DNA from: Prostheceraeus crozeri
Taxonomy: Eukaryota; Platyhelminthes; Polycladida; Euryleptidae
DNA length: 64,000 nt
NCBI GenBank assembly: GCA_907163375.1
Contig: CAJQUW010005318.1
Coordinates: forward strand, 62,001-126,000
Direction of reading: 5' to 3'
This document shows, piece after piece, positions 17,146-49,300 of the stretch. The translations under genes were made by a program, and so were the position numbers. Numbering within the stretch: position 1 is the first letter of the stretch; every line of letters begins with the position of its first letter. The notes under the pieces are model-generated. The model was not told where the DNA came from. It saw nothing but the letters and a program-made list of their open reading frames with translations, and did not search any database.

Positions 17146-17822
17146 AGTAGTAATAAAACGGCGAACACTCGACCGGCGCCCCCCCCCTCTGGAACGACAG
17201 AGTGTCGTGGTCGGCCGCCGTGGTGCTTCGGGTCTGACTCCTCCCCCCCCTGGAACGGCAGAGGTCTGTCGTGGTGTGCCGTCCAGGTTGGTCCACGTTC
17301 ACAAAATGTTCGCTGACTCCCCCCCCTCTGGAACGACAGAGTGTCGTGGTGGTCTTGGGCGACCGCCAGGATTTGTCTTGAGGCTATAGTGTGTGATGTT
17401 TTTCGTACAATCTGCTGAATGTTGGGATGTAAAATGGGCTGTTTCGAGTGCAAGGAGTCCTCGGATGAGGAAACGGAGGCCAGATTCGGATTCAGCGTGA
17501 AATTCTGCATCGGTATGGTGAATTTGAACGCAATCGGAGAGAAAAATTTTCGCTGACGTCCCCCCCCTCTGGAGAGCTCGCTTCGATTTTGGCTTCCAGT
17601 GGACGGATTTTGTCGTGCCATAGCTCGTTTGAAAGCTAAGAGTGAGACAAATTCACTGAAACAAACGGCTTGTTCATATCTGTCTTCGTTTAGATGTGAG
17701 ACGCCATTTAAGATTTTGGGACATTGGCGAAAAACGACAGAGTTAGAATTTGGGACGTTTTGGGCTGTAGCACCAAAACGAAGCATCGGATGGGAAAACG
17801 GATTTCAGATTTGGAATCAGCT
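17146..17822 (+). repeat. Left terminal inverted repeat
   Basis: Inverted match to 60218-60888 with few mismatches. The outer 250 bp hold three copies of a block with a C-run followed by TCTGGAACGACAGAGTGTCG. Each block contains the small palindrome ACGACA...TGTCGT. The inner part holds one copy each of the monomer types that make up the right-hand array. Identity ends sharply at about 17822, where unique promoter sequence begins. Confidence 0.9.
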
Positions 17823-17832
17823 TGATGTTATT

Positions 17833-17883
17833 GTCCAATGAGGGTCATCATCCAATGAGAATCAAGCATTTCTATATAAATAG
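17833..17883 (+). promoter_or_regulatory. Pol II promoter of the leftmost gene: two CCAAT boxes and a TATA box
   Basis: TCCAATGAG occurs twice (near 17834 and 17851), followed by CTATATAAATAG at 17872-17883. The start codon lies about 100 bp downstream. The same double CCAAT plus TATA layout precedes the polymerase gene at the other end. Confidence 0.75.
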
Positions 17884-20374: not shown

Positions 20375-20725
20375 ATGGCGAAACGTAAAAGTCAAAAGTC
20401 TTCAAAGTTTTCTTCAGCCATTCAAGCTCTCCGACGAATGAAAGCAAATCAGCGATACAATGCTATACGACATGCTAACGATAAATTCATTTGTGAAATT
20501 ATTTCTCATGTGAGGAAGTTGAGGACGAAGAAATTAGCGCCAAAACAACGAAAGTTACTTAAGCGATATGCTACGAAATTGCGTTTCATCTCCAATCCTA
20601 AAGTCACCCTTCAAAGAAAGAGGAAAACTCTAACACAAAAGGGCGGTTTCCTTTCAGCAATACTTCCAATGATAGCTCCTGCCGTGGGCAACCTATTGGG
20701 TAATATCTTTGGCTCTAAGCGTTAA
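20375..20725 (+). CDS. Small basic Polinton protein with hydrophobic Gly-rich tail (pX/pVI-like)
   Basis: 116 residues from the ATG at 20375. The N-terminal 90 residues are dense in Lys and Arg. The tail GGFLSAILPMIAPAVGNLLG is a hydrophobic, glycine-rich amphipathic segment. This organisation recurs in Polintons directly upstream of the packaging ATPase and resembles adenovirus core or membrane-lytic minor proteins. It probably binds DNA inside the capsid or helps membrane passage. The stop lies 32 bp before the ATPase ATG. Confidence 0.65.
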   Translation: MAKRKSQKSSKFSSAIQALRRMKANQRYNAIRHANDKFICEIISHVRKLRTKKLAPKQRKLLKRYATKLRFISNPKVTLQRKRKTLTQKGGFLSAILPMIAPAVGNLLGNIFGSKR

Positions 20726-20756
20726 TTATGCAAATGTTGAATCTCAAAGTATTAAA

Positions 20757-21371
20757 ATGGATTTCAGACTTCAATGTGATAAAGTTCTGACTGTATCAGG
20801 TCCATCTCATGCAGGTAAAACTGTTTTCACGCTGAATTTATTGGATAAAAGAAGGGAGTTGTTTAAGGAACCTATCAATCGAGTGATTTGGTGTTATGGT
20901 ATTTATCAACCGTCGCTGTTTCAGGATTTGCAAAGTCGCAACTTTATTCGACATGAAGGAATTATTGCAGTGGATAAACTTCAGTCTAATGATGTTGTTG
21001 TATTGGATGATTTATTAAAAGAAAGTAAGAATTCAAAAGATGTTACAGATATGTTCACTCGCGCAGCACACCATAAAAGGTGCTTCATCTATATCACACA
21101 AAATTTGTTTCCTGATGGAAAAGAAGCTCGTACACGAAACCTGAATACACACTATTATGCTATTTTCAAGAATCCGCGAGATAAAAGTCAATTTGAAATT
21201 TTAGCGCGACAAGTTGCACCCAGAGGATCAAAAGCCTTAATTGAAATTTTTCAAGCAGCTACTGAAAAACCGCACGGTTACTTATTCATTGACTTTACGC
21301 AAGAGTGTCCGGAAGAATTTAGATTTCGAAGTGATATTTTGAAAACTCCCATGATTATCTACAAACTATGA
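20757..21371 (+). CDS. FtsK/HerA-type genome-packaging ATPase
   Basis: 204 residues from the ATG at 20757. An upstream in-frame TTG at 20709 is less likely, because it overlaps the preceding gene. Walker A is GPSHAGKT at residues 15-22, Walker B is DVVVLDDLL at about 79-87, and a conserved YITQN segment follows near 112-116. These are the signatures of A32-like packaging ATPases of Polintons and related viruses, which drive DNA into the capsid. The frame is intact, in contrast to the equivalent gene in the AT-rich relic. Its stop overlaps the next ATG by 4 bp (ATGA), as expected for a tightly packed viral array. Confidence 0.9.
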   Translation: MDFRLQCDKVLTVSGPSHAGKTVFTLNLLDKRRELFKEPINRVIWCYGIYQPSLFQDLQSRNFIRHEGIIAVDKLQSNDVVVLDDLLKESKNSKDVTDMFTRAAHHKRCFIYITQNLFPDGKEARTRNLNTHYYAIFKNPRDKSQFEILARQVAPRGSKALIEIFQAATEKPHGYLFIDFTQECPEEFRFRSDILKTPMIIYKL

Positions 21372-22061: not shown

Positions 22062-22277
22062 ATGAAGCAGATGTGTTGCTTGCCATGTAATGAGCCGCCA
22101 GAGGTGAATGTCGTTGTCACTTGCACTTGCTGCGCCAGCTCTCATAATGAAACCCCTAAGCAATGTGAACACGATTGCAAAACCGCTAAAGCTAAATGCT
22201 GCAGTTGTTGTAAATGTAGAAAGGCAAGAAAACAAAAAGATGAGAAGGAGGAAAAAGAGTCAGTCGTCATCGACTGA
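22062..22277 (+). CDS. Cys-rich small protein (13 Cys in 71 residues)
   Basis: The ATG at 22062 lies 1 bp after the preceding stop. The protein has cysteine clusters (MKQMCCLPC, TCTCC, CCSCCKC) and His residues, followed by a charged Lys/Glu tail. The clusters suggest metal binding, metallothionein- or zinc-knuckle-like. The last 38 bp overlap the integrase start in another frame. An alternative is that this is only a shadow of an extended integrase N-terminus (open from 22108), but the position of its ATG and the cysteine pattern favour a real gene. Confidence 0.5.
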   Translation: MKQMCCLPCNEPPEVNVVVTCTCCASSHNETPKQCEHDCKTAKAKCCSCCKCRKARKQKDEKEEKESVVID

Positions 22278-23328
22278 ACGTTTGAAGTCAATCTATTATG
22301 ATGTAAAACATCCGGCAGGATTTGCATCTATCAAGAAATTATCAAAAGCGAGTGGTCTTCCACAATCACAAGTGAAACGATGGTTAAAGGGTCAGGCTAC
22401 CTATACACTCCACAAACAAGCGAAAAAGAAGTACCGCACCCGCCATTATATTGTTCATGACATCGATGAACAGTGGCAAGCAGATTTGTGCGATGTCGCC
22501 TCCATTTCAAAACATAACTCGGGCAATAATTTTATTTTAATCGTCATTGATATTTTCTCGCGTTATGCGTGGGCTCAACCTTTAAAAACTAAAGAAGGGA
22601 AAGGAGTAGCAAAAGCATTCCAAACAATTTTTCGAGAAGGCCGCATTCCAAAAAGAATTCAGAGTGATCAAGGAAAAGAGTTTGAAAATCAGCATGTGAG
22701 AAGATTATTTGAGAGGCATGACATTGAGTTGTTTAGTGTAAAGAGTGCTTATAAAGCTGCATTCGTTGAACGTTTTAATCGCACATTAAAAAATCGCTTG
22801 TGGCGACATTTTACTGCCAACTTGACACAAAATTGGACAAAGGTTCTACAAGATACACTCCATGCCTACAATCACTCTATCCATCGTTCTATTGGACTCA
22901 GACCAGTAGATGTAAATGCTGACAATGTAGATAAAGTGCGCGAATCATTCCAACGTAAACGCACTCATGTGAAAAGTGATGTGAAAATTGGTGATAAAGT
23001 TCGTATCTCAAAAGTGAAAAGTGTTTTTGCTAAAGGGTACCTTCCGAATTGGACAGAGGAGGTATTTACAGTATCAAGGATTAATCAAAAAGACTCTCCG
23101 ACCACCTACAAGTTGAAAGATTACGATAATGAAGAAATTGAGGGTAGCTTTTACCGCGATGAGATTGAGGTAGTCACTGAAAGTGAAACATATTTGGTAG
23201 AGAAAATCATTCGATGTAAAAAACGGCAAGGTGAAGAATGGTGTCTTGTTCAATGGACTGGTTATCCTTCAAGTATGAACTCTTGGATGCGTCGTGCCGA
23301 CATCTTTCATCTAAGTGATCGACAGTGA
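22240..23328 (+). CDS. Retroviral-type (rve) integrase with C-terminal chromodomain
   Basis: 362 residues from the ATG at 22240; the frame is open further upstream to 22108. The N-terminal part has a helix-turn-helix-like block (KKLSKASGLPQSQVKRWLKG). The catalytic core shows the DDE triad: D82 in WQADLCD, D143 in QSDQGKEFEN and E177 in AAFVERFNRTLK. The C-terminal region (about 316-353) is a chromodomain with YLVEKII...LVQWTGYP...W. Polinton integrases insert the element with a 6-bp duplication, which fits the observed TTTATT. The chromodomain probably guides insertion to marked chromatin. The frame and triad are intact. Confidence 0.93.
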   Translation: MRRRKKSQSSSTERLKSIYYDVKHPAGFASIKKLSKASGLPQSQVKRWLKGQATYTLHKQAKKKYRTRHYIVHDIDEQWQADLCDVASISKHNSGNNFILIVIDIFSRYAWAQPLKTKEGKGVAKAFQTIFREGRIPKRIQSDQGKEFENQHVRRLFERHDIELFSVKSAYKAAFVERFNRTLKNRLWRHFTANLTQNWTKVLQDTLHAYNHSIHRSIGLRPVDVNADNVDKVRESFQRKRTHVKSDVKIGDKVRISKVKSVFAKGYLPNWTEEVFTVSRINQKDSPTTYKLKDYDNEEIEGSFYRDEIEVVTESETYLVEKIIRCKKRQGEEWCLVQWTGYPSSMNSWMRRADIFHLSDRQ

Positions 23329-23369
23329 TTCATGCAAAGTTGTAACTAACAATGTTTAGGGTTTGAGCT

Positions 23370-23825
23370 ATGAATCCAACTGCCTCATTTTATTCACGAC
23401 CCTCCTATGTAAGTGGTGGAGGACAAATTTACATCGGCGCTCGCCGCCAACGTGGAGGTAGCATACTTGGTGCACTGAAATCTGTTGTAGCACCTCTCAT
23501 ATCCAATGTCGGTAGATCTTTAAAACGAAATGTTTTAAGTAATGCCGTTGGCTTTGCTGGTGATGTTGCTAGTGATCTTTCTAGAGGTAGAAGTTTTAAG
23601 AGCAGCTTGTTGAATCGTGGGAAGGAACGCGGTTTAAAAACATTGAAGCAGACCTTTGCTGGTGTTACTCAAGGAAAGAAATCACCTAAACGAATGAATA
23701 AAGGAAGGAGGAAACATCGCCGAGCTGGTAAGGTGCGATCTTCAGTCAAAAGGCATTCACGCAAACGTCGCAGAGGCTCTAATCATTCATCAGGTGCTAA
23801 ACGACGACGCTGCTATAACTTCTAA
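23370..23825 (+). CDS. Basic core-like Polinton protein
   Basis: 151 residues. The N-terminus contains GGGQIYIGARRQRGGSILG, a Gly/Arg motif found just upstream of the capsid gene in many invertebrate Polintons. A hydrophobic middle follows, and then a very basic C-terminal third (runs of K and R around KRHSRKRRRGS). This fits a DNA-condensing or capsid-cementing minor protein, analogous to adenovirus core proteins. The capsid gene ATG starts 2 bp after its stop. Confidence 0.65.
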   Translation: MNPTASFYSRPSYVSGGGQIYIGARRQRGGSILGALKSVVAPLISNVGRSLKRNVLSNAVGFAGDVASDLSRGRSFKSSLLNRGKERGLKTLKQTFAGVTQGKKSPKRMNKGRRKHRRAGKVRSSVKRHSRKRRRGSNHSSGAKRRRCYNF

Positions 23826-23827
23826 TC

Positions 23828-25105
23828 ATGGAGTGTAAAACTTCCGGTTTTTGTTTGTTTGATCAACAGGCCATACAGACAGATATTCTTAGTTCAAGTA
23901 TTGTAGATTATCATCCTCGAACAGCTGAGAATGCTGGCCCCATTGAATTTGTTATTCCTGGTGGTAGTGATGACTACATAGATTTGAGTTATGCGATGCT
24001 TGATTTGAGGTTTAGAATTCAGCAAGCAGATGGAACTGCTATTGACGATGCACATAAAGTTGGACTGAACAATTTACCATTGACTACATTACTTCGCGAT
24101 GTTTCTCTAACGATTGGAGAGCAGCAGGTGGAAGGTGGTCAAAGCGATTATCCCTATAAATCATATTTCAATCATGTATCACAGTTTCATCCAGCAGCAC
24201 AAAAAAGTCATATGGAAGCCATGGGATGGTATAGAGATGAAGCAGGAAAATTTGATGTTGAAACAAACAGTGGCTTTGTAAAGCGATCTGCTATGATTAA
24301 AGATAGTAAAGTATGTCAGCTATATGGTCCGCTGAATTTAGACTTCTTTAGACAGTCAAAGTTTTTACTCTGTAATACCAGCATGCGACTCAAGCTGACA
24401 TTGAATAAGCCTGAATTTGCGCTGAATGCATTTGCTAAAGTTGACAATTTTAGAATTCATGTGGAAGATATTGCACTTTACATTCGTCGAGTAGTACCGA
24501 ATCCAAGTGTCATTAGAGGACATGCTGAAGGTCTTAACCGCCAAAATGCCATTTACCCCGTTCAGCATACAAAGCTTCTCACCTTTACAATTCCGAAAGA
24601 TGAAAAGAGTTTCATGAAAGATGGCCTCTTTCCATCGGAAGCACCGAAGCTCCTCATGGTGGCAATGGTTGAAAATGATGCATTTAATGGTAATATAAAG
24701 AAGAATCCTTTCAATTTTAAACACAATCAGTTAAGTGAAATTGCTTTACGTGTAAATGGTGTGAGTCATCCTGGTCCACCCTACAAACCAGATTTTGCTT
24801 CGGATCAATTTATGCGCAGTTATGTTGATTTTATGGATGTCTTTGGCTTTTACAATACGGATGACACCAACGGACTTACTATGAAAGAGTTTAAGAGTGG
24901 ATATACTATTTATGCATTTGTTTTGACTGCTGACAGCGATATTAGTGCACCCTATCGTCAAGCGAACGTGCCTCATAATATTCGTTTGGATTTAACGTTC
25001 AAAAGAACACTACCTGAGACGATCAATGTATTAATTTATGCAGTCTTCGATTCAAATATTGAAATTACAAAGTATCGTGACGTGATTCTTCAGTATAATC
25101 GTTAA
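23828..25105 (+). CDS. Capsid protein, probable double-jelly-roll major capsid (F54H12.2-like)
   Basis: 425 residues, intact. It contains AENAGPIEFVIPGGSDDYID near the N-terminus, then LSLTIGEQQVEGGQSDYPYK-type spacing (DVSLTIGEQQVEGG, YKSYFNHV) and AMGWYRDEAG. These are features of the protein family named after C. elegans F54H12.2 that sits in many invertebrate Polintons. The length matches compact double-jelly-roll capsid proteins such as PRD1 P3. The assignment as major rather than minor capsid is inferred from family knowledge and from the neighbouring protease. Its stop overlaps the protease ATG (TAATG). Confidence 0.75.
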   Translation: MECKTSGFCLFDQQAIQTDILSSSIVDYHPRTAENAGPIEFVIPGGSDDYIDLSYAMLDLRFRIQQADGTAIDDAHKVGLNNLPLTTLLRDVSLTIGEQQVEGGQSDYPYKSYFNHVSQFHPAAQKSHMEAMGWYRDEAGKFDVETNSGFVKRSAMIKDSKVCQLYGPLNLDFFRQSKFLLCNTSMRLKLTLNKPEFALNAFAKVDNFRIHVEDIALYIRRVVPNPSVIRGHAEGLNRQNAIYPVQHTKLLTFTIPKDEKSFMKDGLFPSEAPKLLMVAMVENDAFNGNIKKNPFNFKHNQLSEIALRVNGVSHPGPPYKPDFASDQFMRSYVDFMDVFGFYNTDDTNGLTMKEFKSGYTIYAFVLTADSDISAPYRQANVPHNIRLDLTFKRTLPETINVLIYAVFDSNIEITKYRDVILQYNR

Positions 25106-25566
25106 TGAGTTGGTTGACTGCTGACGATATTAAGACTAAAGTGCAGCATAATGCAGACGAAGCGACGTTGAAAGCTTTCGATAATGTCTATTCACTCGAT
25201 ACCTTACCACCTGCAGTAAATCACTATCCCTTCTTTATTGTACTAAACACTCATTCGCAGAATTTAGGCGGTGAGCATTGGAAAGCGATCTTTATTGGAG
25301 AAGACCGACGTGGTGAACTATTTGACTCTCTTGCTCAACCTCCAAATATACCAACACAGCAGTGGTTGAGAAAACATACGCGTCAATATCAGCGAAATGA
25401 ACGCATACTACAACATCCACTTTCATCAACGTGTGGTGCTTTTGTACTGTACTTCATCTTAAAACGTTTACATGTATCTCGATTTGTATCTGTTATTCAA
25501 AACTTTTCATGTAATCCATCCTCTAATGAAAAAATGATTTGTAAGTTCTATCATGATTTGAAATAA
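25105..25566 (+). CDS. Adenain-like cysteine protease (maturation protease)
   Basis: 153 residues. The catalytic layout matches adenovirus/Ulp1-type proteases: His58 in GGEHWKAI, an acidic residue in ELFDSL (Glu71/Asp74), Gln103 in ILQHPLSS and Cys110 in STCGAFVLYF. This enzyme would cleave capsid and core precursors during maturation. The frame is intact and starts one base inside the capsid stop. It is shorter than adenain, as Polinton versions often are. Confidence 0.88.
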   Translation: MSWLTADDIKTKVQHNADEATLKAFDNVYSLDTLPPAVNHYPFFIVLNTHSQNLGGEHWKAIFIGEDRRGELFDSLAQPPNIPTQQWLRKHTRQYQRNERILQHPLSSTCGAFVLYFILKRLHVSRFVSVIQNFSCNPSSNEKMICKFYHDLK

Positions 25567-25623: not shown

Positions 25624-26142
25624 TCAATGAGATAGTCTAGGATCGATCACATTTGCTTGTACATGAGATTTTAGTTCAGTAATGATCACTTTACTATTAT
25701 GAAAGATTGCCACATGCACAGGTAACCAACAACTAATGAGAGCTGCAGGAAAAAGTTCGGGTTCATAACACAAATTGTAACTGCTGGTACGAATCTTCAA
25801 AAATGATAGACTGTCACTCAATTGAGTAGAGATCACCATATTGTCCACAGTCAGATTCGACATCACACACCTCTACCTCTTCCATATCCGACGTAGTAGT
25901 CTTTGTAGCTCTAAGCGCATTGACTGCGCTGATGAATGAGAAAGGGCGCCGAGAATCTGTACAGTCCCATTTGGGAAGAGTTGAAGATTCCGTGAATTGT
26001 TCATCTTCACCACTAACATTTGAGGTCGGCCCGGGTAATACTTGCTGTTTGGAAGGTGTTGGTGTAATGTTGTGAGATCGATTTTGGTGTAGAGTCTGAA
26101 GCGACGGAGAATGTTGACGATGGTGTAGCGATGGCGCTTCAT
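25624..26142 (-). pseudogene. TATA-binding-protein (TBP) homologue, one in-frame stop between lobes
   Basis: TBP seats Pol II machinery on TATA boxes through a saddle of two repeats. From the ATG at 26142, lobe 1 contains YTIVNILRRF, KIDLTTL, NSKYYPGR and LFPNGTVQILGA. These align without gaps to the N-IVSTVNL...DLK...YNPKRF...FSSGKMVCTGA framework of eukaryotic TBP. Lobe 2, in the same frame, contains DNMVISTQL, the TBP signature YEPELFP, and IFHNSKVII. A TAG at 25873-25875 falls in the linker between lobes. Total length of about 172 codons equals a TBP core. A second frame (25814-26464) overlaps it. I know of no well-described TBP in Polintons. The stop may be damage, an assembly error, or may separate two half-proteins. 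Confidence 0.85.
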
Positions 26143-26464
26143 GATGAAAGAATGAGTAAATTGAGCGATGTACCTTCCTTTTATACTTTTCCCAACTACC
26201 TTGATGAAATGTGAAGTTAGTATGAAGTTGGGAATGATAGAGTTGAATTCGCCGATTGTTGACGCGCAGCCAGATGCGATTTCCAATACGTGAATGTCTT
26301 TTCATATAGAAGTATTTCAAATCCTTCATGATATGATGTAGAGATTGAAAATGACGATAAGATAAAGCAAACTCTCTTCTCACATTTCCAGTTGAATCTT
26401 TGAAATAGACGTTTCGATCATGATCCGTTTCAATACGTTGTAGGGAATCTAATTTCCAACTCAT
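25814..26464 (-). CDS. PC4-like single-stranded-DNA-binding protein, copy 1, with a frame running over the TBP gene
   Basis: From the ATG at 26464 the first 100 residues have two blocks of beta-strands followed by a helix. Block 1 is SLQRIETDHDRNVYFKDS...LSYRHFQSLHHIMKDL. Block 2 is IWLRVNNRRIQLYH...SWEKYKRKVHRSI. The arrangement resembles the PC4/p15 coactivator fold (GIxLTxxQWxxL). Residues beyond about 105 are low-complexity and overlap the TBP-like gene in another frame. They are probably an extension through a lost stop, since the sister copy ends at that point. The PC4 assignment is by pattern only. Confidence 0.5.
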   Translation of the reverse strand: MSWKLDSLQRIETDHDRNVYFKDSTGNVRREFALSYRHFQSLHHIMKDLKYFYMKRHSRIGNRIWLRVNNRRIQLYHSQLHTNFTFHQGSWEKYKRKVHRSIYSFFHHEAPSLHHRQHSPSLQTLHQNRSHNITPTPSKQQVLPGPTSNVSGEDEQFTESSTLPKWDCTDSRRPFSFISAVNALRATKTTTSDMEEVEVCDVESDCGQYGDLYSIE

Positions 26465-26486: not shown

Positions 26487-26840
26487 TTAAGATTTGCATA
26501 GTAGGGCGATGAACTCACGACGAATAAATGTCATGATGGAGCGATGTATGTATCTTCTATACTTCTCCCAATTGTATTTGCGAAATGAGAAACAGTTTGC
26601 GGAATGAGAATGGCAGATTTGAATTTCATTTCTGTAATGTTGAAGCCAAACTTGATCACCCAAGGAGATGAATCTTAATGTTTCAAAATATTCCAAATCC
26701 CTCATGATATCATTGAGGTTGACAAATTGTCGCCATGTTAATGTAATACCTCTTGATGTATGACCATGAGAATTTTTGAAATGTACGTTTCCATCACGAT
26801 CAACTCTGATATATTGTAGAGAGTCCAAAATCCAAGTCTT
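26487..26840 (-). pseudogene. PC4-like protein, copy 2, start codon changed to AAG
   Basis: A tandem sister of the neighbouring gene: SLQYIRVDRDGNVHF and RGITLTWRQFVNLNDIMRDL align to its sister's SLQRIETDHDRNVYF and the following helix. The RGITLTWRQF segment is the closest match to the PC4 signature. Where the sister has its ATG (MSWKLDS), this copy has AAG (KTWILDS) at 26838-26840, and no upstream in-frame ATG precedes a stop. It therefore either lost its start or uses an unseen exon. It lies 39 bp from the start of the divergent plus-strand gene. Confidence 0.5.
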
Positions 26841-26878
26841 TATGATGTTATGCAAAGTCGCAGATCAGCAATATAAAA

Positions 26879-28292
26879 ATGTCGTTTTATCATATTTTGC
26901 TTAGCAATGCGGCTACAAAGAGATTTGCTAGTAATCGAGCCGCACTCTTTTCTACTCCCATTCATCATGCACAACAGCTAAATGGAAATTGGGAAGTGGG
27001 TGTCACTCAACTTGTTTATAGCAACTGTGTCTATACTTTTGATCATGAGGTGATGACTATTAATATGAGACGTACAGCTGCTTACCAATGTGAAAAGGGG
27101 TGCCGAGTATACATTCCACAGTGGCCAAAGAAAGATCTCTTATCATGTAAAAAGTTTATATATGATAAAAAAAGCGAGTAATAACAGTAATAAAGCGAGT
27201 AAACATATTTTCCAATTTACTCCGCACAATAATGATTATAATTATGTACATCATGTAGTTGAGAAAGATTGGATTGTTGGTTTAAGTCCAAGTTTAAGAA
27301 ATGATTTAGGTTACCTCGCTAGCGCCTTAACAAGCTATGATAATTTTAATGTTAATTACCACATAAGTGGTCATAAACAGTTAATATATCGAGAGGAAGC
27401 TTATTATGTAGATCTTATTCCAAGAAATGAGAAGACGTTGGTGAAGAAGATTGTGATTTAGCCAAGAAAGACAAACATGACTCCTGAAACATTATTGAAG
27501 AAATTTAATTATCTCCTTCGAGTTGATGGTAAACAAGTGGCAACATTGACTTATATCAAATCATCTAATCATATTGCAATAAGTAAATTAAATGATGATG
27601 ATCTAGTATTAGTTTGTTCAAAAAATTTTCATCAGTTCTTACGACATCGTTCTGCAGCTGTTCATGGAAAATCTGATATGCAACATTTACCATGTGAAAG
27701 GTCAAATCAATTTGATACAGAATGGATCGTATCTTTATACAGAAAGTGTGTAGAGCCTTTAGGTGGTATCTTACATGAAACAAGATTGTTGATGCCTCGC
27801 ATTATTATTTCGGTTAAATTGGTTGTAGATTATTTAAATGAAGTGATTAATGACCAACATATTTCATTTTCTGAAAAAGAAGGTACTTTGTCTCTCACTA
27901 TAAGTGGAAAAGGTATTGAACTAATTATGGATAAAACTCTAATGGACATTTTGGGTTTTGATCAAAATATCTTTAAAAGTGGTACTGTAACCAAAGCTAG
28001 CGCAGACATGTCGCTATCGCGTCGTATTAACTATTTTCAGATATATTCCAATATCGGTGAAGATGTACGTGTGGGAGATGCTGAAGCTCCATTGCTAGCA
28101 ATGATACCATACCAGCCAAAAAGCTGCAGTATTTTATCTGAGCATACTTTCAAGAAAGTGCATTATACAAAGCTGAAATCAAACTACATCCCACAAATTG
28201 ATATTGCCATTTATGACGATGCTGGTGCGTTTATTCCTTTTCATAAAGATGCTGTGACAAGTATCACACTCCATTTCCGAATGAAGAGTTAA
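26879..28292 (+). pseudogene. Minor-capsid/penton-like protein, copy 1, one frameshift and one stop
   Basis: The ATG at 26879 opens a frame with LNGNWEVGVTQLVY, the WEVG signature of the N-terminal part of Polinton minor capsid (penton-like) proteins. A frame change occurs near 27090-27110, and the new frame runs to a TAG at 27459. The same frame resumes and ends at 28292 with the family's characteristic C-terminus: DVRVGDAEAPLLAMI, then a final SITLHFRMKS. Total about 470 codons, close to the sister gene. It would form capsid vertices with the F54H12.2-like protein. This copy is probably inactive. Confidence 0.7.
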
Positions 28293-28331
28293 TGCAAAAG
28301 TATGCTAATATATTTTTCCAATGTGAATAAT

Positions 28332-30036: not shown

Positions 30037-33000
30037 TTATGCTAAGACGTCTCCTGAATATGGTAGTGTGAGTTTAATTCTTTTGGGTGGTGGTATGTTT
30101 GTGTCAGGATGTCCATGTGGAAGAGATATGTTGTGTTCTAACCAGCACCTCTTATCCTCCCATGCTGAAAGCGCCCGTTTCCTAAAAGTATGAGTTTTGA
30201 TCTCATGCGACTTAGATTTTAAGATTGTCATATTGACAAACGTTATATTTTTATTTCTATAGGCTTTCCTGAAATTTTTATGTTTCATGTTAGAGACCAA
30301 TGATCTTGATATGCCTTTAGCACGCTTAATACTATCTGCACATTCTTTTCATTTCATGGAATACATTTTAGGGCGGAGGAGAATCATTTCATCTATTTCC
30401 TTCCCTGCTGTCTCATCCTTAAAGCAGCCAAGTTTTGCCTTATTTTTGATGGAGTAGAGTGGGTGATCAGTAGGATAATTTGATGTATCAAAATATCTTT
30501 CTAAAGATTTTCCTACTTCATTGAAATTTAAATCTTTTTGAGTGGTAATACCTAAGAAGAAACTATCTGTATCGCCACCCAACAAACGAACCTCTTTTAC
30601 GAGAGGACATGGTTTTAGTATTTTATAAAAGAGTTGGTACATTTCAAGCTTAGAGTAATCTAGTACAGCTTGACCAATATAGATGGGCTTGCACAACTCA
30701 ACTTCAGATTTTATCATTTTAACACCTACAAGGTCCTCATCGATAATGTCTCCATCGATGAATAGAGGTGATGAGACCAATTTCTTAAATTTTGTAACAT
30801 CATTGACTAGTTTATAGTTTACACGTTTTATAGCATCCTCCATCGTCTTACCAAATAGACTATTATTCTTATACTTATAAAAATCTTTTTCAAAATTATT
30901 TTGGGCTAGTGCACGTTTCTGGCTGTTGCTATCAATATATGGTTTGAGGAAGGCTTTCTGTCTAAATTTAATAATGCGGTGAACTCTTTTTAAAATCATA
31001 CCCATTTCTAAATAAAATTTTAAGATGCTAAAGTGGACTAGATAGTTTTCCTTATCATACTGGGTGAGTAAAAGTTTGCGGCAAGGCTTATAGTCGGGTT
31101 GACCGCATGATTCTAAATCTTTATGAAATTGTTTCATAAAGTCGGAAAACATATCTTTGGTCACTTCACCTGATTCGGGTGCGAGTGGAAAATCTACGGT
31201 TTTATGTTTAATATTATTTGGATCGATTAGATCTATCTCAAAATAATATCCCCAATCACCTTCATCTGGAATTGCTAGTATGTTAGAAGGGTTGGAGAGA
31301 TGCTGAATTTCACTATCATCTAACCAGCTAAACTCAGAGTGAGGGAGTGGTTTGGATAGTGAACTATCATATAAATTATTTTGGTCATAATACTTAGGAT
31401 GAGTCTGATCATCGCCTACTAATTTTGATTTCAACCTATGTTTATTTACAAATGTGAGACCACCGCGAATTCCTCGCTCAAATAAATTATACATCTCTGG
31501 ATCTTGTAAGAGATGAATGGTCTCACCAGTCATTTTAAAAGCAGACTTAAATGACATGGCTGGCAGACTGACAAAGTGTACGGGATCTAACTTATCTTCT
31601 TCTAATGCCACTCGTCGAAACTCCTGAAATACATCAGCCAGCAAAAATACATCTAACTTAAGGTAGGCAATCATATATTCGCCAAATGTATGGCAGTCAA
31701 ATTTTATCCATGCATCTTGTGCATGATCATAATCTTCGGTCTTACCTTCTGCGCCGGTCAAATCATTTTTAAATTTATCTATGGGCGGAAGAGAAGTCTC
31801 GCCGAGTTTACTAATCGCATCAAAATATGCATATGGAAAGACTCCTTTCCGTGTGATGACTTCATCGGTTAGATTTGGATATTGTTTCTTAAGATTTTGT
31901 GTTAGTGGAAGAGACTTTAGATTTTGTACGAGAGAGGCCAGTGATGCAGTCATAAATTGGTAGGAATCTAAAAATTTTATATCAAAATAGACCGTCTTAT
32001 TTTCTTTAGTTTTATCGACAGGCACTTTTGCTGTCATGGCCATAAACTTCTCTCTCGTTTGTGCTATTACATCAAGCTTCCACTCTTTCATTTGACCTAA
32101 ACCTCCTTTTATTATCATATGGCTGTCGTAGCCCTTGAAATTATGGAAAATGACGGGTAATATACGCCGTTTCATCCTAAGTGAAAAATTGCATTTTGAA
32201 CATAGTGCGTTTCTAAATTTACCAGTGATGTGATCATGGTCGCACACTTTCTTAATCTTATCATCATCAAATGTTTTCCTACATTTGGTGCAAGCGTTGC
32301 AACTATCAAATTTTGCTTGATCATCTGCTGTCATATGCAATGATCTGCGATAGAGTTCACTATCGTACTTTTGTTGAAATTTTACAGCCTGTTCGAGGAA
32401 TTGTAGGAATTGGTAAATACAATCCTCACCTTGCCAGACGTGCATTTTATTTTTTCTATTTTGGAAATGGTCATGCCATACTTCATAGCAGGATATGGCT
32501 GCTGGCTTGTGGATGATATCATCGATATAGCATTCGATGTCAACATAGATGACACGAAGAGGACTTAGTTCATCGCCATTCTCTCTATATGAAAACTCCT
32601 TATCTTTGGGCATGCGCTCCATTTGTAGTTTACCTCGCTTACACCATTCGTAATGAGTTTCAAATTTATTTTTACTCCTAAAGTTGCGAATGCATCTGTC
32701 ACAGTAATAAATCTCTGACGAGCTAGAATTTCTTAGGTGGTGGTATAAGCGAGAAATTTTGGGAATACCGCAGTAGTGCCATTCCTCACTATCATCCTGT
32801 CTTAGTAATAAAAGGTTGACAACGTGCTCATAACAACACGAACGCGAGTTGTAGCGGACACCCTTCAATCCCTTTTCCCAAACATGGAGAACTATTTTGA
32901 TGTTGTTCAATTTTTCAAATTTTTCTATATCTTTAATTTTCATATCTTCACTATTGCAGTCATCAAACTTTAATTCATTCTCCCACTGTTGATACTTACT

Positions 33001-34026
33001 CTTACGGTATCGGCTATACTGTACATCATTATAGTGGAGAATGGAGAGGACGGCATACTTAAAACATTGCGATTCGCAATCTACAGAAATAACTGCTGCT
33101 TTATTTCTTAAATTTTTCGGAAGTTTAAAGGAGCCTCGTCCAGAGTAGTTCTCTAATAAAGTGATTTTAATCATGGCAGTCTCAATACCATCAAAAACGA
33201 GACCACTATCACGCTCGTTAAATTTATCTATGTTTAATTTTAACCCTTGGATATGAAAATTTATCCAAGACTCGCAGTCTACAACTTCGGTTGCAGGAGA
33301 GGAGGGTATGTGAAACTCCAACCTCTCTACTATTTGACCAGTATGGTGGTCGATTTTTACATATTTTATTTTGAGATAGATGAGCGCCTTCATTCTAAAA
33401 TTGACTAAATTGTTGAAGAGCGCACCAATCAGAGATGAATTTTGATGAAACCATTCTTCAAAGTCAGTAATGGTTTCTGAGGATTCCATCTGGTAGTTCC
33501 TCACTAAATTATTTATCGACACTTCAGAGAGTCGGATAGAGGAGGCGCTGTTAGTATAACTATCGTCACTGTGTGTATGTCGAAGTCTATGTGAAGATAG
33601 TTCAAAATGTGACTCAAAAGACTGAATGCATAAATCGCAAGAAAAGGAGACATCGTTAACAAAATCATCCCCACCTTCGGAGATTGATGCTGACTTAGGT
33701 CTACAAACACCTCGCTTGATGTGTCGGGCGAGATCACGCTTCCTCGTGAAGATGTGCCCACAGTCAGCACATTCCCGATCGTTGCATTCCCGCGACAATG
33801 TTGACATGGACTCGCTCGAGATGGGACTGGTATCACCTGAAAGAGAAATCATTCTATCATCTCTGTTCAAGTCTCAGTGTATTTTTACAACCTACCTTGA
33901 CTCAACAACTCTAAACTTTCCTCGAGAAGGGAGGGCGTTGGTGATGAAGTTGATGCCTGAAATTGAGGAAGATGCTATTAGCCACACGTTTCAGGGAGAT
34001 GACTGATGAATTCCTTAGCTTACCAT
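30037..34026 (-). pseudogene. Protein-primed DNA polymerase B, three exons, in-frame TGA near the C-terminus
   Basis: Exon 1 is the start codon alone (34026-34024). A 67-nt intron (34023-33957), exon 2 (33956-33896), a 59-nt intron (33895-33837) and exon 3 from 33836 follow, all in frame, with GT-AG borders. Numbering from 33870, there are C2H2-like fingers at about 34-55, 77-99 and 392-413, exonuclease motifs [10 protein letters not shown] (about 443) and [10 protein letters not shown] (about 578), and a Cys/His cluster [18 protein letters not shown] between them. Polymerase motif A is DQNNLY (about 828), motif [11 protein letters not shown] (about 1000) and motif [10 protein letters not shown] (about 1099). 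A TGA at 30349-30351 interrupts the frame. Coding continues a further 103 codons to 30037. All catalytic motifs lie before the TGA. Confidence 0.9.
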
Positions 34027-34609: not shown

Positions 34610-34750
34610 ATGGCGGAGTGGGAGTATATCGACAAAGTGAGGCTCGCAGTGGAAGAACGATTGAAACAAGTGAACTGCTTTTGTGATCTATGTGAAGCCA
34701 GACTCTGGGACGATATTGACGATGAAGACCTTTTGAAATACATGCCATAA
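34610..34750 (+). CDS. Cys-motif microprotein, copy 1 (46 residues)
   Basis: From the ATG at 34610 (MAEWEYIDKVRLAVEERL). A short helix is followed by CFCDLCEARLWDD and an acidic tail ending KYMP. AATAAA overlaps the stop (34749-34754). The same protein end recurs 356 bp downstream with only synonymous differences, which argues that this tiny frame is real. The C-x-C-x2-C pattern could bind zinc as a dimer. Function unknown. Confidence 0.65.
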   Translation: MAEWEYIDKVRLAVEERLKQVNCFCDLCEARLWDDIDDEDLLKYMP

Positions 34751-35353
34751 TAAATGTTTATTTCGTATTATCTTTGCTTTCATACTGACTTACTTGAATG
34801 GGGCTTCAGTGGATGATTATATCATGTATACTTTTTCATTTGGAAATAGTAGCACGCTTAGTTTAACTTGCAAATCTTATAACATTTCATATGGGTGATA
34901 ATGGTAGATGAAAATGTGTTAAATAAAATTAAGATAGCTTACACTTCTGATACAGGGATAGCAATCGACTGCAATCCATGTGTAAAGAGCTTGTTAGACT
35001 CGCGGTAGAAGAACGATTGAAGCAAGTAAACTGTTTTTGTGATCTATGTGAAGCCAGACTCTGGGACGATATTGACGATGAAGACCTTTTGAAATACATG
35101 CCATAATAAATGTTTATTTCGTATTATCTTTGCTTTCATACTGACTTACTTGAATGGGGCTTCAGTGGATGATTAAATCATATATACTTTTTCATTTGGA
35201 AATAGTATCACGCTTAGTTTAACTTGCAAATCTTATAACATTTCATATGGGTGATAATGGTAGATGAAAATGTGTTAAATAAAATTAAGATAGCTTACAC
35301 TTCTGATACAGGGATAGCAATCGACTGCAATCCATGTGTACAGAGCTTGTTAG
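34642..35353 (+). repeat. 356-bp tandem duplication (two copies plus a start of a third)
   Basis: The segments from about 34642 and 34998 repeat with a 356-bp period. They are nearly identical after the first 60 bp, including the poly(A) signal and the downstream spacer. A third copy begins near 35340 and breaks off at about 35362. Confidence 0.85.
34978..35106 (+). CDS. Cys-motif microprotein, copy 2 (42 residues)
   Basis: A new ATG at 34978 (MCKELVRLAVEERL), contributed by the upstream end of the repeat unit, leads into the same CFCDLCEARLWDD domain and KYMP end. In the first shared stretch (R-L-A-V-E-E-R-L-K-Q-V-N-C) six codons differ from copy 1, all synonymously. AATAAA overlaps the stop. 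The N-terminal residues differ from copy 1. Confidence 0.6.
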   Translation: MCKELVRLAVEERLKQVNCFCDLCEARLWDDIDDEDLLKYMP

Positions 35354-35545
35354 ACTCGCGGAAGAGAGAAGTGTGTTATGTTGCGTGTGGCGCGTGAGTG
35401 TCCTCCCATTTCATTCCATTCATCATTTTTCTTCCCCTCTGCATTCCATATCCGAGGATATGTAGCGGGCTTGGGACTGCTTTAGCTGCATTAGAAGGTT
35501 GGACCTTAAAAGAGCCCATGGGTCGTTCTCCGTCCACCGACACTA

Positions 35546-37397: not shown

Positions 37398-40300
37398 AGA
37401 GGGGCGGGGACGTCAGCGAAAATTTTTCTCTCCGATTGCGTTCAAATTCACCATACCGATGCAGAATTTCACGCTGAATCCGAATCTGGCCTCCGTTTTC
37501 TCATCAGATGGTTCGTTTTGGCGCTACACACCAAAACGTCCCAAATTCTAACTCTGTCGTTTTTTCGAAAAATGTTGAAAATTTTTTCTCTCCGATTGAC
37601 TTGAAACTCACCATACAGATAGAGAATTTCACGCTGATTCCCAATCTGAAATCCGTTTTCCAATCCGATGCTTCGTTTTGAAGCTACAGCCCAAAACGTC
37701 CCAAATTCTAACTCTGTCGTTTTTCGCCAATGTCCCAAAATCTTAAATGGCGTCTCACATCTAAACGAAGACAGATATGAACAAGCCGTTTGTTTCAGTG
37801 AATTTGTCTCACTCTTAGCTTTCAAACGAGCTATGGCACGACAAAATCCGTCCACTAGAAGTCAAGATCGAAGCGAGCTCTCCAGAGGGGGGGACGTCAG
37901 CGAAAATTTTTCTCTCCGATTGCGTTCAAATTCACCATACCGATGCAGAATTTCACGCTGAATCCGAATCTGGCCTCCGTTTTCTCATCCGATGGTTCGT
38001 TTTGGCGCTATAAACCAAAACGTCCCAAATTCTAACTCTGTCGTTTTTCGAAAAATGTTGAAATTTTTTTCTCGCCAATTGCCTTGAAACTCACCATACA
38101 GATAGAGAATTTCACGCTGATTCCAAATCTGAAATCCGTTTTCCAATCCGATGCTTCGTTTTGAAGCTACAGCCCAAAACGTCCCAAATTCTAACTCTGT
38201 CGTTTTTCGCCAATGTCCCAAAATCTTAAATGGCGTCTCACATTTAAACGAAGACAGATATGAACAAGCCGTTTGTTTCAGTGAATTTGTCTCACTCTTA
38301 GCTTTCAAACGAGCTATGGCACGACAAAATCCGTCCACTGGAAGCCAAAATCGAAGCGAGCTCTCCCGAGGGGGGGACGTCAGCGAAAATTTTTTCTCTC
38401 CGATTGCGTTCAAATTCACCATACCGATGCAGAATTTCACGCTGAATCCGAATCTGGCCTCCGTTTTCTCATCCGATGGTTCGTTTTGGCGCTATACACC
38501 AAAACGTCCCAAATTCTCTCTGTCGTTTTTTCGAAAAATGTTGAAAATTTTTTCTCGCCGATTGCCTTGAAACTCACCATACAGATAGAGAATTTCACGC
38601 TGATTCCAAATCTGAAATCCGTTTTCCAATCCGATGCTTCGTTTTGAAGCTACAGCCCAAAACGTCCCAAATTCTAACTCTGTCGTTTTTCGCCAATGTC
38701 CCAAAATCTTAAATGGCGTCTCACATCTAAACGAAGACAGATATGAACAAGCCGTTTGTTTCATTGAATTTGTCTCACTCTTAGCTTTCAAACGAGCTAT
38801 CGCACGACAAAATCCGTCCACTAGAAGCCAAGATCGAAGCGAGCTCTCCCGAGGGGGGGGACGTCAGCGAAAATTTTTTCTCTCCGATTGCGTTCAAATT
38901 CACCATACCGATGCAGAATTTCACGCTGAATCCGAATCTGGCCTCCGTTTTCTCATCCGATGGTTCGTTTTGGCGCTATACACCAAAACGTCCCAAATTC
39001 TCTCTGTCGTTTTTTCGAAAAATGTTGAAAATTTTTCTCGCCGATTGCCTTGAAACTCACCATACAGATAGAGAATTTCACGCTGATTCCAAATCTGAAA
39101 TCCGTTTTCCAATCCGATGCTTCGTTTTGAAGCTACAGCCCAAAACGTCCCAAATTCTAACTCTGTCGTTTTTCGCCAATGTCCCAAAATCTTAAATGGC
39201 GTCTCACATCTAAACGAAGACAGATATGAACAAGCCGTTTGTTTCAGTGAATTTGTCTCACTCTTAGCTTTCAAACGAGCTATGGCACGACAAAATCCGT
39301 CCACTAGAAGTCAAGATCGAAGCGAGCTCTCCAGAGGGGGGGGACGTCAGCGAAAATTTTTCTCTCCGATTGCGTTCAAATTCACCATACCGATGCAGAA
39401 TTTCACGCTGAATCCGAATCTGGCCTCCGTTTTCTCATCCGATGGTTCGTTTTGGCGCTATACACCAAAACGTCCCAAATTCTAACTCTGTCGTTTTTCG
39501 AAAAATGTTGAAAATTTTTTCTCGCCGATTGCCTTGAAACTCACCATACAGATAGAAAATTTCACGCTGATTCCAAATCTGAAATCCGTTTTCCCATCTG
39601 ATGCTTCGTTTTGAAGCTACAGCCCAAAACGTCCCAAATTCTAACTCTGTCGTTTTTCGCCAATGTCCCAAAATCTTAAATGGCGTCTCACATCTAAACG
39701 AAGACAGATATGAACAAGCCGTTTGTTTCAGTGAATTTGTCTCACTCTTAGCTTTCAAACGAGCTATGGCACGACAAAATCCGTCCACTGGCAGCCAAAA
39801 AAGAAGCGAGCTCTCCCGAGGGGGGGGACGTCAGCGAAAATTTTTTCTCTCCGATTGCGTTCAAATTCACCATACCGATGCAGAATTTCACGCTGAATCC
39901 GAATCTGGCCTCCGTTTTCTCATCCGATGGTTCGTTTTGGCGCTACACACCAAAACGTCCCAAATTCTAACTCTGTCGTTTTTTCGAAAAATGTTGAAAA
40001 TTTTTTTCTCGCCGATTGACTTGAAACACACCATACAGATAGAGAATTTCACGCTGATTCCCAATCTGAAATCCGTTTTCCAATCCGATGCTTCGCTTTG
40101 AAGCTACAGCCCAAAACGTCCCAAATTCTAACTCTGTCGTTTTTCGCTAATGTCCCAAAATCTTAAATGGCGTCTCACATCTAAACGAAGACAGATATGA
40201 ACAAGCCGATTCTTTCAGTGAATTTGTCTCACTCTTAGCTTTCAAACGAGCTATGGCATGACAAAATCCGTCCACTGGAAGCCAAAATCGAAGCGAGCTG

Positions 40301-46300: not shown

Positions 46301-49300
46301 GACAGATATGAACAAGCCGTTTGTTTCAGTGAATTTGTCTCACTCTTAGCTTTCAAACGAGCTATGGCACGACAAAATCCGTCCACTGGAAGCCAAAATC
46401 GAAGCGAGCTGTCCAGAGGGGGGGGACGTCAGCGAAAATATTTTCTCTCCGATTGCGTTCAAATTCACCATACCGATGCAGAATTTCACGCTGAATCCGA
46501 ATCTGGCCTCCGTTTTCTCATCCGATGGTTCGTTTTGGCGCTATAAACCAAAACGTCCCAAATTCTAACTCTGTCGTTTTTTCGAAAAATGTTGAAAATT
46601 TTTTCTCGCCGATTGCCTTGAAACTCACCATACAGATAGAGAATTTCACGCTGATTCCAAAATCTGAAATCCGTTTTCCAATCCGATGCTTCGTTTTGAA
46701 GCTACAGCCCAAAACGTCCCAAATTCTAACTCTGTCGTTTTTCGCCAATGTCCCAAAATCTTAAATGGCGTCTCACATCTAAACGAAGACAGATATGAAC
46801 AAGCCGTTTGTTTCAGTGAAATTGTCTCACTCTTAGCTTTCAAACGAGCTATGGCACGACAAAATCCGTCCACTGGAAGCCAAAATCGAAGCGAGCTCTC
46901 CAGAGGGGGGGGGACGTCAGCGAAAATTTTTTCTCTCCGATGGCGTTCAAATTCACCATACCGATGCAGAATTTCACGCTGAATCCGAATCTGTCCTCCG
47001 TTTTCTCATCTGATGGTTCGTTTGGGCGCTACACACCAAAACGTCCCAAATTCTAACTCTGTCGTTTTTTCGAAAAATGTTGAAAATTTTTTCTCGCCGA
47101 TTGACTTGAAACACACCATACAGATAGAGAATTTCACGCTGATTCCAAATCTGAAATCCGTTTTCCAATCCGATGCTTCGTTTTGAAGCTACAGCCCAAA
47201 ACGTCCCAAATTCTAACTCTGTCGTTTTTTCGCCAATGTCCCAAAATCTTAAATGGCGTCTCACATCTAAACGAAGACAGATATGAACAAGCCGTTTGTT
47301 TCAGTGAATTTGTCTCACTCTTAGCTTTCAAACGAGCTATGGCACGACAAAATCTGTCCACTGGAAGCCAAAATCGAAGCGAGCTGTCCAGAGGGGGGGA
47401 CGTCAGCGAAAATTTTTCTCTCCGATTGCGTTCAAATGCACCATACCGATGCAGAATTTCACGCTGAATCCGAATCTGGCCTCCGTTTTCTCATCCGATG
47501 GTTCGTTTTGGCGCTATAAACCAAAACGTCCCAAATTCTAACTCTGTCGTTTTTCGCCAATGTCCCAAAATCTTAAATGGCGTCTCACATCTAAACGAAG
47601 ACAGATATGAACAAGCCGTTTGTTTCAGTGAATTTGTCTCACTCTTAGCTTTCAAACGAGCTATGGCACGACAAAATCCGTCCACTGGAAGCCAAAATCG
47701 AAGCGAGCTCTCCAGAGGGGGGGACGTCAGCCAAAAATTTTTTCTCTCCGATTGCGTTCAAATTCATCATACCGATGCAGAATTTCACGCTGAATCCGAA
47801 TCTGGCCTCCGTTTTCTCATCCGATGCTTCGTTTGGGCGCTACACACCAAAACGTCCCAAATTCTAACTCTGTCGTTTTTTCGAAAAATGTTGAAAATTT
47901 TTTCTCGCCGATTGCCTTGAAACTCACAATACAGATAGAGAATTTCACGCTGATTCCAAATCTGAAATCCGTTTTCCAATCCGATGCTTCGTTTTGAAGC
48001 TACAGCCCAAAACGTCCCAAATTCTAACTCTGTCGTTTTTCGCCAATGTCCCAAAATCTTAAATGGCGTCTCACATCTAAACGAAGACAGATATGAACAA
48101 GCCGATTCTCTCAGTGAATTTGTCTCACTCTTAGCTTTCAAACGAGCTATGGCACGACAAAATCCGTCCACTGGAAGCCAAAATCGAAGCGAGCTGTCCA
48201 GAGGGGGGGGGACGTCAGCGAAAATTTTTTCTCTCCGATGGCGTTCAAATTCACCATACCGATGCAGAATTTCACGCTGAATCCGAATCTGGCCTCCGTT
48301 TTCTCATCCGATGGTTCGTTTGGGCGCTACACACCAAAACGTCCCAAATTCTAACTCTGTCGTTTTTCGCCAATGTCCCAAAATCTTAAATGGCGTCTCA
48401 CATCTAAACGAAGACAGATAGGAACAAGCTGATTCTCTCAGTGAATTTGTCTCACTCTTAGCTTAGCTTTTTTTTTTTACTTAATGACTTTGCTCTCCTT
48501 TTTCTTTTGCGCAATCCCTAGAGATGTCTTGGACAAATAATGCTCCTCCCTACGTTACCATCGTATTCCTTTTCATATTTCACTGATAATTCCTTGATTT
48601 TTTAATTCCTACAAATTTTTTTTAACTTACTTATTGATCATCATCCTTACAAACATTGAGATAATTTCGATTAATACTAAAGTCCCTGACTGCGCAAATC
48701 TCTTTATCGATTTAACCAAAACTAAATTATATTATCTTTATCTACTATATAAAAGCTAATACTTCCACCCTTTTCGATATTTATCCACTAAACTTATTTC
48801 CCAATTATAGATGCCTCCTTTTTGTTTATTTCGCTTGCCTGCTTTAAATCGGCACACTCGTTTATCATGCCCTAAATGATGTATATAACATTAAAGCTTA
48901 CTACAAGTTTTACCATCTCCTCAACAATCTATTACACAGCCTAGAACACTTTTACCCCATTAAATTAAAACTAGCCATATTATACTTCGATACCCCTCGC
49001 ATTATCCATTTATTCATAATGTTCTATTCCAAGACTACCTTACACTTATCTCCATCCCCCTTATTATCAAGCTCTAAATTTCCTTACCTTAATAACACTA
49101 CATACCGACACATAACCCTTCAAAGCAACCTTACATCGCACCACAAACTATTATATTAATCGTAAATTCTACCTTAGAACATATCGATACCACATCTATA
49201 GCCAATTACAGCTTACCCTTTATCCTTAATACTTATTAATTTATCAACCCTAGACATTATTACACACCACTCCTTAGCTTAAATATAAGACTTAAAAGAA

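Follow-up and report, generated by a model that had tools for sequence, protein, structure and literature searches.

Does a Polinton, a class of virus-like mobile element placed close to the origin of many eukaryotic DNA viruses, encode its own TATA-binding protein (TBP), and to what end? The question is raised by a minus-strand gene of the polyclad flatworm Prostheceraeus crozeri, lying in a stretch of 64,000 nucleotides that was analysed at full length (here, the window). The evidence given below leads us to propose that this is probably a conserved Polinton gene for a divergent, element-specific TBP with a promoter element of its own. The element encoding it is roughly 20 kb in size, and its relatives in the genome fall into three diverged lineages (A, B and C), the window copy belonging to lineage A. 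The following genes characterise the element in the window:

20757..21371, plus strand: A32-like packaging ATPase, with weak Pox_A32 and AAA matches under the cut-off; 67% identical in lineage C
22108..23328, plus strand: retroviral-type integrase with chromodomain (PF00665, E 1.5e-10; PF00385, E 4.8e-6)
23828..25105, plus strand: major-capsid-like protein, with at least 98 further near-identical copies in the genome and a 54% identical relative in lineage C
25105..25566, plus strand: Ulp1/adenain-like cysteine protease, the convergent neighbour of the TBP gene (PF02902, E 0.0016, under the curated cut-off)
30349..33852, minus strand: large polymerase-like protein with an endonuclease VII domain (PF02945, E 2.5e-6)

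The integrase with its chromodomain is as expected of a Polinton/Maverick. The matches of the protease and the ATPase (PF02902, E 0.0016; PF00770, E 0.051; PF04665, E 0.023) all lie under the curated cut-offs. From motifs seen by eye, we take the polymerase-like protein to be a family-B DNA polymerase; Pfam returned endonuclease VII and a weak C2H2 zinc finger for it and nothing else. The capsid-like protein is, by its signature, presumably a double jelly-roll major capsid protein (MCP), and it gave no Pfam match, no PDB sequence match and only a weak, unrelated PHROG match. No RNA polymerase was found among the window ORFs scanned. At 20375-20725, a small basic protein weakly resembles the mu core protein of adenoviruses (PF05829, E 0.0025, under the cut-off).

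The TBP gene itself converges on the protease gene and consists of the following parts:

25627..26142, minus strand: TBP homologue, broken copy (PF00352 for each lobe, PDB matches, open siblings)
26142-25876, minus strand: TBP lobe 1 (frame 26301-25876, Met at 26142)
25873-25875, minus strand: in-frame stop between the lobes
25872-25627, minus strand: TBP lobe 2

The initial annotation had placed both lobes in one minus-strand frame. The lobes and their place are confirmed by PF00352; the open frame is not, since the stop at 25873-25875 interrupts it. The C-terminal frame also differs from that of the sibling copies, and with both changes the window copy is broken. Scored alone, lobe 1 matches PF00352 with an E value of 1e-10 and 41.7 bits (profile positions 2-84 of 85) and lobe 2 with 7.7e-7 and 29.3 bits (positions 2-72 of 85), so that each lobe separately surpasses the curated cut-off of 22.9 bits in the profile comparison that had been suggested. 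The archaeal TBP models of NCBIfam match both lobes as well, with scores under their full-length cut-offs. The PDB sequence matches were TBPs for both lobes, the exception being a weak nicotinamidase match of lobe 2 (E 0.56). YEPELFP, which had been named as the mark of lobe 2, occurs a single time in a six-frame translation of the window, within that lobe (25767). The window sequence is a TBP homologue, as had been claimed.

For the proposed structure prediction, the intact relative P0001 was used, which matches PF00352 with 72.8 bits in two stretches. Its AlphaFold2 model (pLDDT 91.5, pTM 0.84) has the predicted saddle fold of TBPs (Foldseek E 4.9e-12, TM 0.76). TBP-domain proteins include RNase HIII and DNA-glycosylase types, and the short, diverged lobes could be read as another such protein or as a chance resemblance. 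However, there are two lobes, each above the Pfam cut-off, and all 44 PDB structures matched by the model at E ≤ 0.001 are TBPs or TBP fusions. The profile scores and PDB sequence matches of both lobes exclude chance, and we reject this reading as extremely improbable. Against BFVD, the first named match of the model was the TBP of Heterosigma akashiwo virus, and others came from Terrestrivirus and further giant viruses.

The gene is not confined to the window. A PF00352 profile search of the 2.05-Gb genome gave at least 150 scored hits out of 10,983 first-look candidates. Four of these 150 lie at host loci, namely the canonical TBP locus L001, of which L003 holds one more exon, and a TRF2-like locus (L002, name inferred); of the other 146, 138 have no stop in the matched lobe. 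When the relative P0083 served as query, at least 150 matches (144 without a stop) were obtained, which, judging from frame length, probably represent lineage B. Around 20 of the PF00352 hits, 10-kb stretches were searched for element genes. A relative of the polymerase-like protein was present at all 20 loci, and protease, capsid-like and integrase genes surrounded the TBP gene at ten, nine of lineage A and one of lineage C. At the other ten, all of lineage B, no protease, capsid-like or integrase gene was found within 10 kb; seven of them carry relatives of the window ORFs 18242 and/or 18970. Sampling in the reverse direction, from 20 of the at least 98 further capsid-like copies, recovered a TBP gene in 20/20, with both lobes open in 19/20. 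The exceptions among these copies were a frameshift (L119), a changed C-terminus (L120) and a shorter upstream frame (L125). The TBP gene is mostly open in the siblings. The earlier assignment to a Polinton is borne out by all 20 TBP-selected loci, which lie beside Polinton-type genes, and the predicted recurrence of the gene next to the protease was found in lineages A and C.

The capsid-like copies listed, from 19,156 first-look candidates, match that of the window at 99-100% identity. This suggests a recent Polinton burst, probably a very large one. Several of the capsid-selected copies are exactly identical in the central 300 nt. Being near-identical, such copies show the state of the copies and not independent evolution. 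About 27 kb ahead of the window, its contig carries another TBP gene (G000:C4420:34811-35311), probably a lineage B copy. Queries of IMG/VR with the TBP, the MCP-like and the polymerase-like protein retrieved zero relatives; a host TBP query retrieved no giant-virus TBPs from this collection either, so the collection seems to be without such elements and the null result says little.

A family search, for which three database relatives and the lineages A, B and C had been combined in one alignment (A1), found 173 proteins at E ≤ 0.001 among 4,501 candidates; the best 120 of the 173 all carry PF00352. These database relatives were compared as proteins. The mean identity of the family to the host TBP is 23% (22-23% to cellular TBPs), as against 44% between the host TBP and 12 archaeal TBPs (14 loci requested of 80, with a usable frame in 12). 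In a tree, 21 Polinton-type TBPs (one from each lineage plus 18 database relatives) share a mean identity of 45% among themselves, and a branch of 2.67 separates them from the cellular set, in which the host TBP is the only eukaryotic TBP beside the archaeal ones. Mean dN/dS values were 0.37 for A (21 pairs), 0.53 for B (28 pairs) and 0.49 for C (3 pairs from three distinct copies, L005 being the same copy as L009). They refer to unbroken, distinct copies, a selection that biases them somewhat downwards; the broken or fused frames excluded were the window copy, L011 and L016 in A, and L006, L008, L012 and L023 in B. Between lineages, dS is near saturation. The family thus comprises divergent TBPs far from the host TBP, with dN/dS below 1.

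These values bear on the reading of the gene as a fragment of the host TBP or TRF2, recently captured and now decaying in one element. The stop and the changed C-terminal frame of the window copy would fit such a history. However, the family is only 23% identical to the host TBP, which itself is 44% identical to archaeal TBPs; at least 146 further PF00352 hits lie beyond the host loci, 138 of them without a stop in the match; and the gene is common to three diverged lineages. With the linkage to Polinton genes in addition, a captured host fragment is rejected as having next to no probability.

Contact residues were counted in an alignment of 120 relatives (A2), gaps being set aside. Both minor-groove Asn are invariant (83/83 and 119/119 sequences), and so are three of the intercalating Phe (108/108, 120/120 and 120/120). 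The fourth position, the first Phe of lobe 1 (human F193), is Pro in 101/103 and sits within a GRP motif. As almost every member lacks this Phe, the protein may bind DNA differently; the replacement is a natural experiment on DNA recognition by TBP. The stirrup YExELFP, which we take to be the TFIIB-contact site of TBP, is strongly conserved (E127 in 116/120, E129 in 120/120, L130 in 105/120, F131 and P132 in 120/120).

Two other functions of the protein have to be weighed against this pattern. It might be a mimic directed against the host, binding TFIIB or other partners of TBP so that host promoters are deprived of them, without serving promoters of the element. The stirrup is indeed among the best-kept parts (E129, F131 and P132 in 120/120), and the exchange of one DNA-kinking Phe of lobe 1 for Pro in 101/103 would suit such a role. 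However, the two minor-groove Asn and three Phe are invariant in the non-gap rows, although a protein acting only as a decoy for TFIIB could do without them, and a start-proximal box is common to two lineages (see below); we consider the mimic unlikely. Alternatively, the TBP fold might have been re-used as a structural DNA-bending protein in replication, end recognition or packaging rather than transcription. The gene adjoins those for the protease and the capsid-like protein in A and C, and in B it is found close to the polymerase. These positions would agree with such a role, as would a neighbour with a single-strand-binding-like fold (up2). It would, however, leave the conservation of the TFIIB-contact stirrup over 120 relatives unexplained, and is in our judgement likewise unlikely.

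This neighbour, up2, overlaps the TBP gene on the same strand and is preceded by a paralogue of its N-terminal domain:

25817..26464, minus strand: up2, 216 aa (open frame, synonymous-shuffle test, homologues with the same tail, model and VIA-align)
26490..26843, minus strand: up1, paralogue of the up2 N-terminal domain, directly upstream (matches sibling up1 genes)

Modelling and VIA-align predict for the N-terminal domain of up2 (approximately the first 108 aa; 26141-26464) a Whirly/PUR-like fold of the single-strand-binding type. PC4 was rejected as the family of up2, having no Pfam support and being absent among the best 50 structure matches, where Whirly/PUR folds were found instead. The C-terminal half is predicted to be disordered and overlies TBP lobe 1 out of frame; the overprinting of a general-transcription-factor fold by a second gene would be unusual. 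In the sibling L013, up1 is 42% identical to up2 (alignment A3). Lineage A has two paralogous domains in tandem before TBP, with the overlapping tail in up2 only (the fold was modelled for up2 only). Values of pS in the overlap and in the rest were 0.051/0.054 (A), 0.041/0.050 (B) and 0.032/0.016 (C) in a first set, and 0.046/0.068, 0.043/0.063 and 0.032/0.041, respectively, in a second set with L026 and L017 added, L004 replacing L005 and another alignment mode. Between lineages pS is saturated, and between A and B it is higher in the overlap than in the rest. The overlap of TBP and up2 therefore rests on the open-frame test and the homologues.

Which promoters would such a TBP serve? TATA promoters of the element had been proposed at 17872, 34195 and 37368. 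TATA-like strings do exist near these positions; their service by the viral TBP is not supported, as TATA hexamers are not enriched before the element genes (4/19 upstream stretches of 150 nt; the background, about 0.17 sites per stretch, predicts about 3/19). On this ground, a general use of canonical TATA promoters by the element was rejected. A de novo 6-mer test within 60 nt of the starts gave ATGCAA as the best word in lineage A (5/15 starts, expected 0.35; reached by 12 of 1,000 random same-strand sets) and AAGCAA in lineage C (6/9 starts, expected 0.36; reached by 0 of 1,000). The A set excluded three frames (two nested, one a 101-aa ORF with ATGCAA at about -31), and with a looser gene set ATGCAA precedes 6/18 starts; the C set, which stands for one element (L009), excluded the ATPase, which is truncated there, and an alternative, later TBP start. 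The boxes lie mostly 28-46 nt before the start codons. Combined as AWGCAA, a pattern chosen post hoc, they occur in the zone from -50 to -20 at 4/15 starts in A and 6/9 in C, which 2 and 0 of 20,000 random sets reach, respectively. In lineage B no word was significant (the best was equalled in 99 and 359 of 500 random sets), and AWGCAA was present at 1/8 and 1/7 starts. The signals in the window are:

20728..20733, plus strand: candidate promoter box ATGCAA, before the packaging-ATPase-like gene (start 20757)
23332..23337, plus strand: candidate promoter box ATGCAA, before the ORF at 23370
26850..26855, plus strand: candidate promoter box ATGCAA, before the ORF at 26879
26494..26499, minus strand: candidate promoter box ATGCAA, before up2
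28292..28297, plus strand: ATGCAA only 10 nt before the ORF at 28302, included in the k-mer count and outside the -50 to -20 zone
26177..26185, minus strand: TATA box TATAAAAGG, 43 nt before the TBP start and within the up2 coding sequence

The last of these is the only canonical TATA box that all three lineages share. Located 43 nt before the TBP start (46 nt in C), TATAAAAGG was found in 10/10 distinct copies of A, 10/11 of B and 2/3 of C (22/24 in total, including the window), and it is present in 20/20 MCP-selected copies. It also encodes Tyr-Lys-Arg of up2; codon usage alone would produce it with P 0.053 per lineage and 0.003 for two further lineages. At the corresponding place in up1 it is absent.

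Based on these observations, we propose the following hypothetical sequence of events, in which (i) upon activation of the element, the host TBP would read TATAAAAGG before the TBP gene as an early step; (ii) the viral TBP would then bind the AWGCAA boxes, mostly 28-46 nt before the start codons, bending the DNA with three intercalating Phe instead of four; (iii) its conserved YExELFP stirrup would recruit host TFIIB and Pol II; and (iv) the packaging and capsid genes would thereby be switched on by the viral TBP, with up2 and its paralogue up1 probably assisting by holding melted or single-stranded DNA. The data show that the protein is a TBP, linked to Polinton genes and conserved; the early/late switch and the pairing of this TBP with the AWGCAA box are our inference. 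Both lobes, the P0001 model, the contact residues, the linkage, dN/dS, the independent discovery of the words ATGCAA and AAGCAA, TATAAAAGG in three lineages, and a partner with a predicted Whirly/PUR-type fold count in favour of the proposal. Counting against it, lineage B has the TBP but no AWGCAA box, the box precedes only part of the genes (5/15 within 60 nt in A, 6/9 in C), and a different factor could read it instead of the viral TBP; the fourth Phe is lost, TATAAAAGG doubles as codons of up2, the window copy is broken and the copies of a lineage are not independent. That animal Polintons carry a complete private core-promoter system, with the TBP expressed from a host-readable TATA box, AWGCAA read by this TBP and an overprinted Whirly/PUR-like partner, we put forward tentatively, as plausible and still somewhat doubtful. 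If true, it would provide a small mobile element with a temporal early/late gene switch through rewired host Pol II. A dedicated TBP and promoter box would explain how the genes of an integrated element are controlled apart from host promoters.

With the cellular TBPs of archaea and eukaryotes, the Polinton TBP shares the two-lobed saddle, the Asn pair, three of the four Phe and the YExELFP stirrup. In contrast to them, it is only 22-23% identical, has Pro at the first Phe position of lobe 1, and its lobe 1 is overlapped by another gene in three lineages. TRF2/TLF, a metazoan TBP paralogue used at non-TATA promoters, is likewise a TBP relative with altered DNA-contact residues; however, the TRF2-like host locus (L002, name inferred) stands separately in this genome. 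Virophages and Polinton-like viruses are small DNA viruses with a short promoter motif before their genes, and virophages copy the promoters of the giant virus they parasitise. The Polinton element shares the short motif, but brings its own TBP.

The TBPs of giant viruses are also virus-encoded and have the TBP fold, as the BFVD matches of the P0001 model show. A TBP is described for a megavirus with RNA polymerase subunits of its own (PMC11464507), and TFIIB and TBP of CpV-BQ1 are suggested to redirect the host RNA polymerase (PMC12085832). Giant-virus genomes, however, comprise hundreds of kb (437 kb in CpV-BQ1), whereas the element has about 20 kb and no RNA polymerase in the ORFs scanned. 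TBP is reported for 59% of mirusvirus genomes (Gaia et al. 2023, PMC10132985) and in elements of putative mirusvirus origin (PMC10675990). The mirusvirus TBP, likened here by description, is likewise virus-encoded, but comes from large plankton viruses. Virus-encoded TBPs are thus known from giant viruses and mirusviruses; for Polintons, Mavericks or adintoviruses, no earlier report was found in the passages of open-licence PMC texts consulted, among them passages of PMC11640650, PMC10120064, PMC12220804, PMC6431247, PMC9952930, PMC8363768 and PMC7786948, nor does PMC11071308 mention one, which agrees with the initial remark that no case had been established. The element-encoded TBP suggests that Polinton genes may have a private promoter code.

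Candidate terminal repeats of the element are an inverted pair of 374 nt (17452-17825 and 39078-39451, 97% complementary), the right side of which is, however, part of a tandem array. This array extends over 37398-60579 in units of approximately 160 and 483 bp, with the inverted copy across the element at 17452-17825, and may represent Polinton terminal repeats expanded into a satellite. Within it, the GC skew at 48001-52000 is -0.45 to -0.47, compared with about -0.17 on either side, and a different sequence seems to have been inserted there. Near the right end of the element, at 34643-35370, a 356-bp unit occurs in two tandem copies (97% matches).
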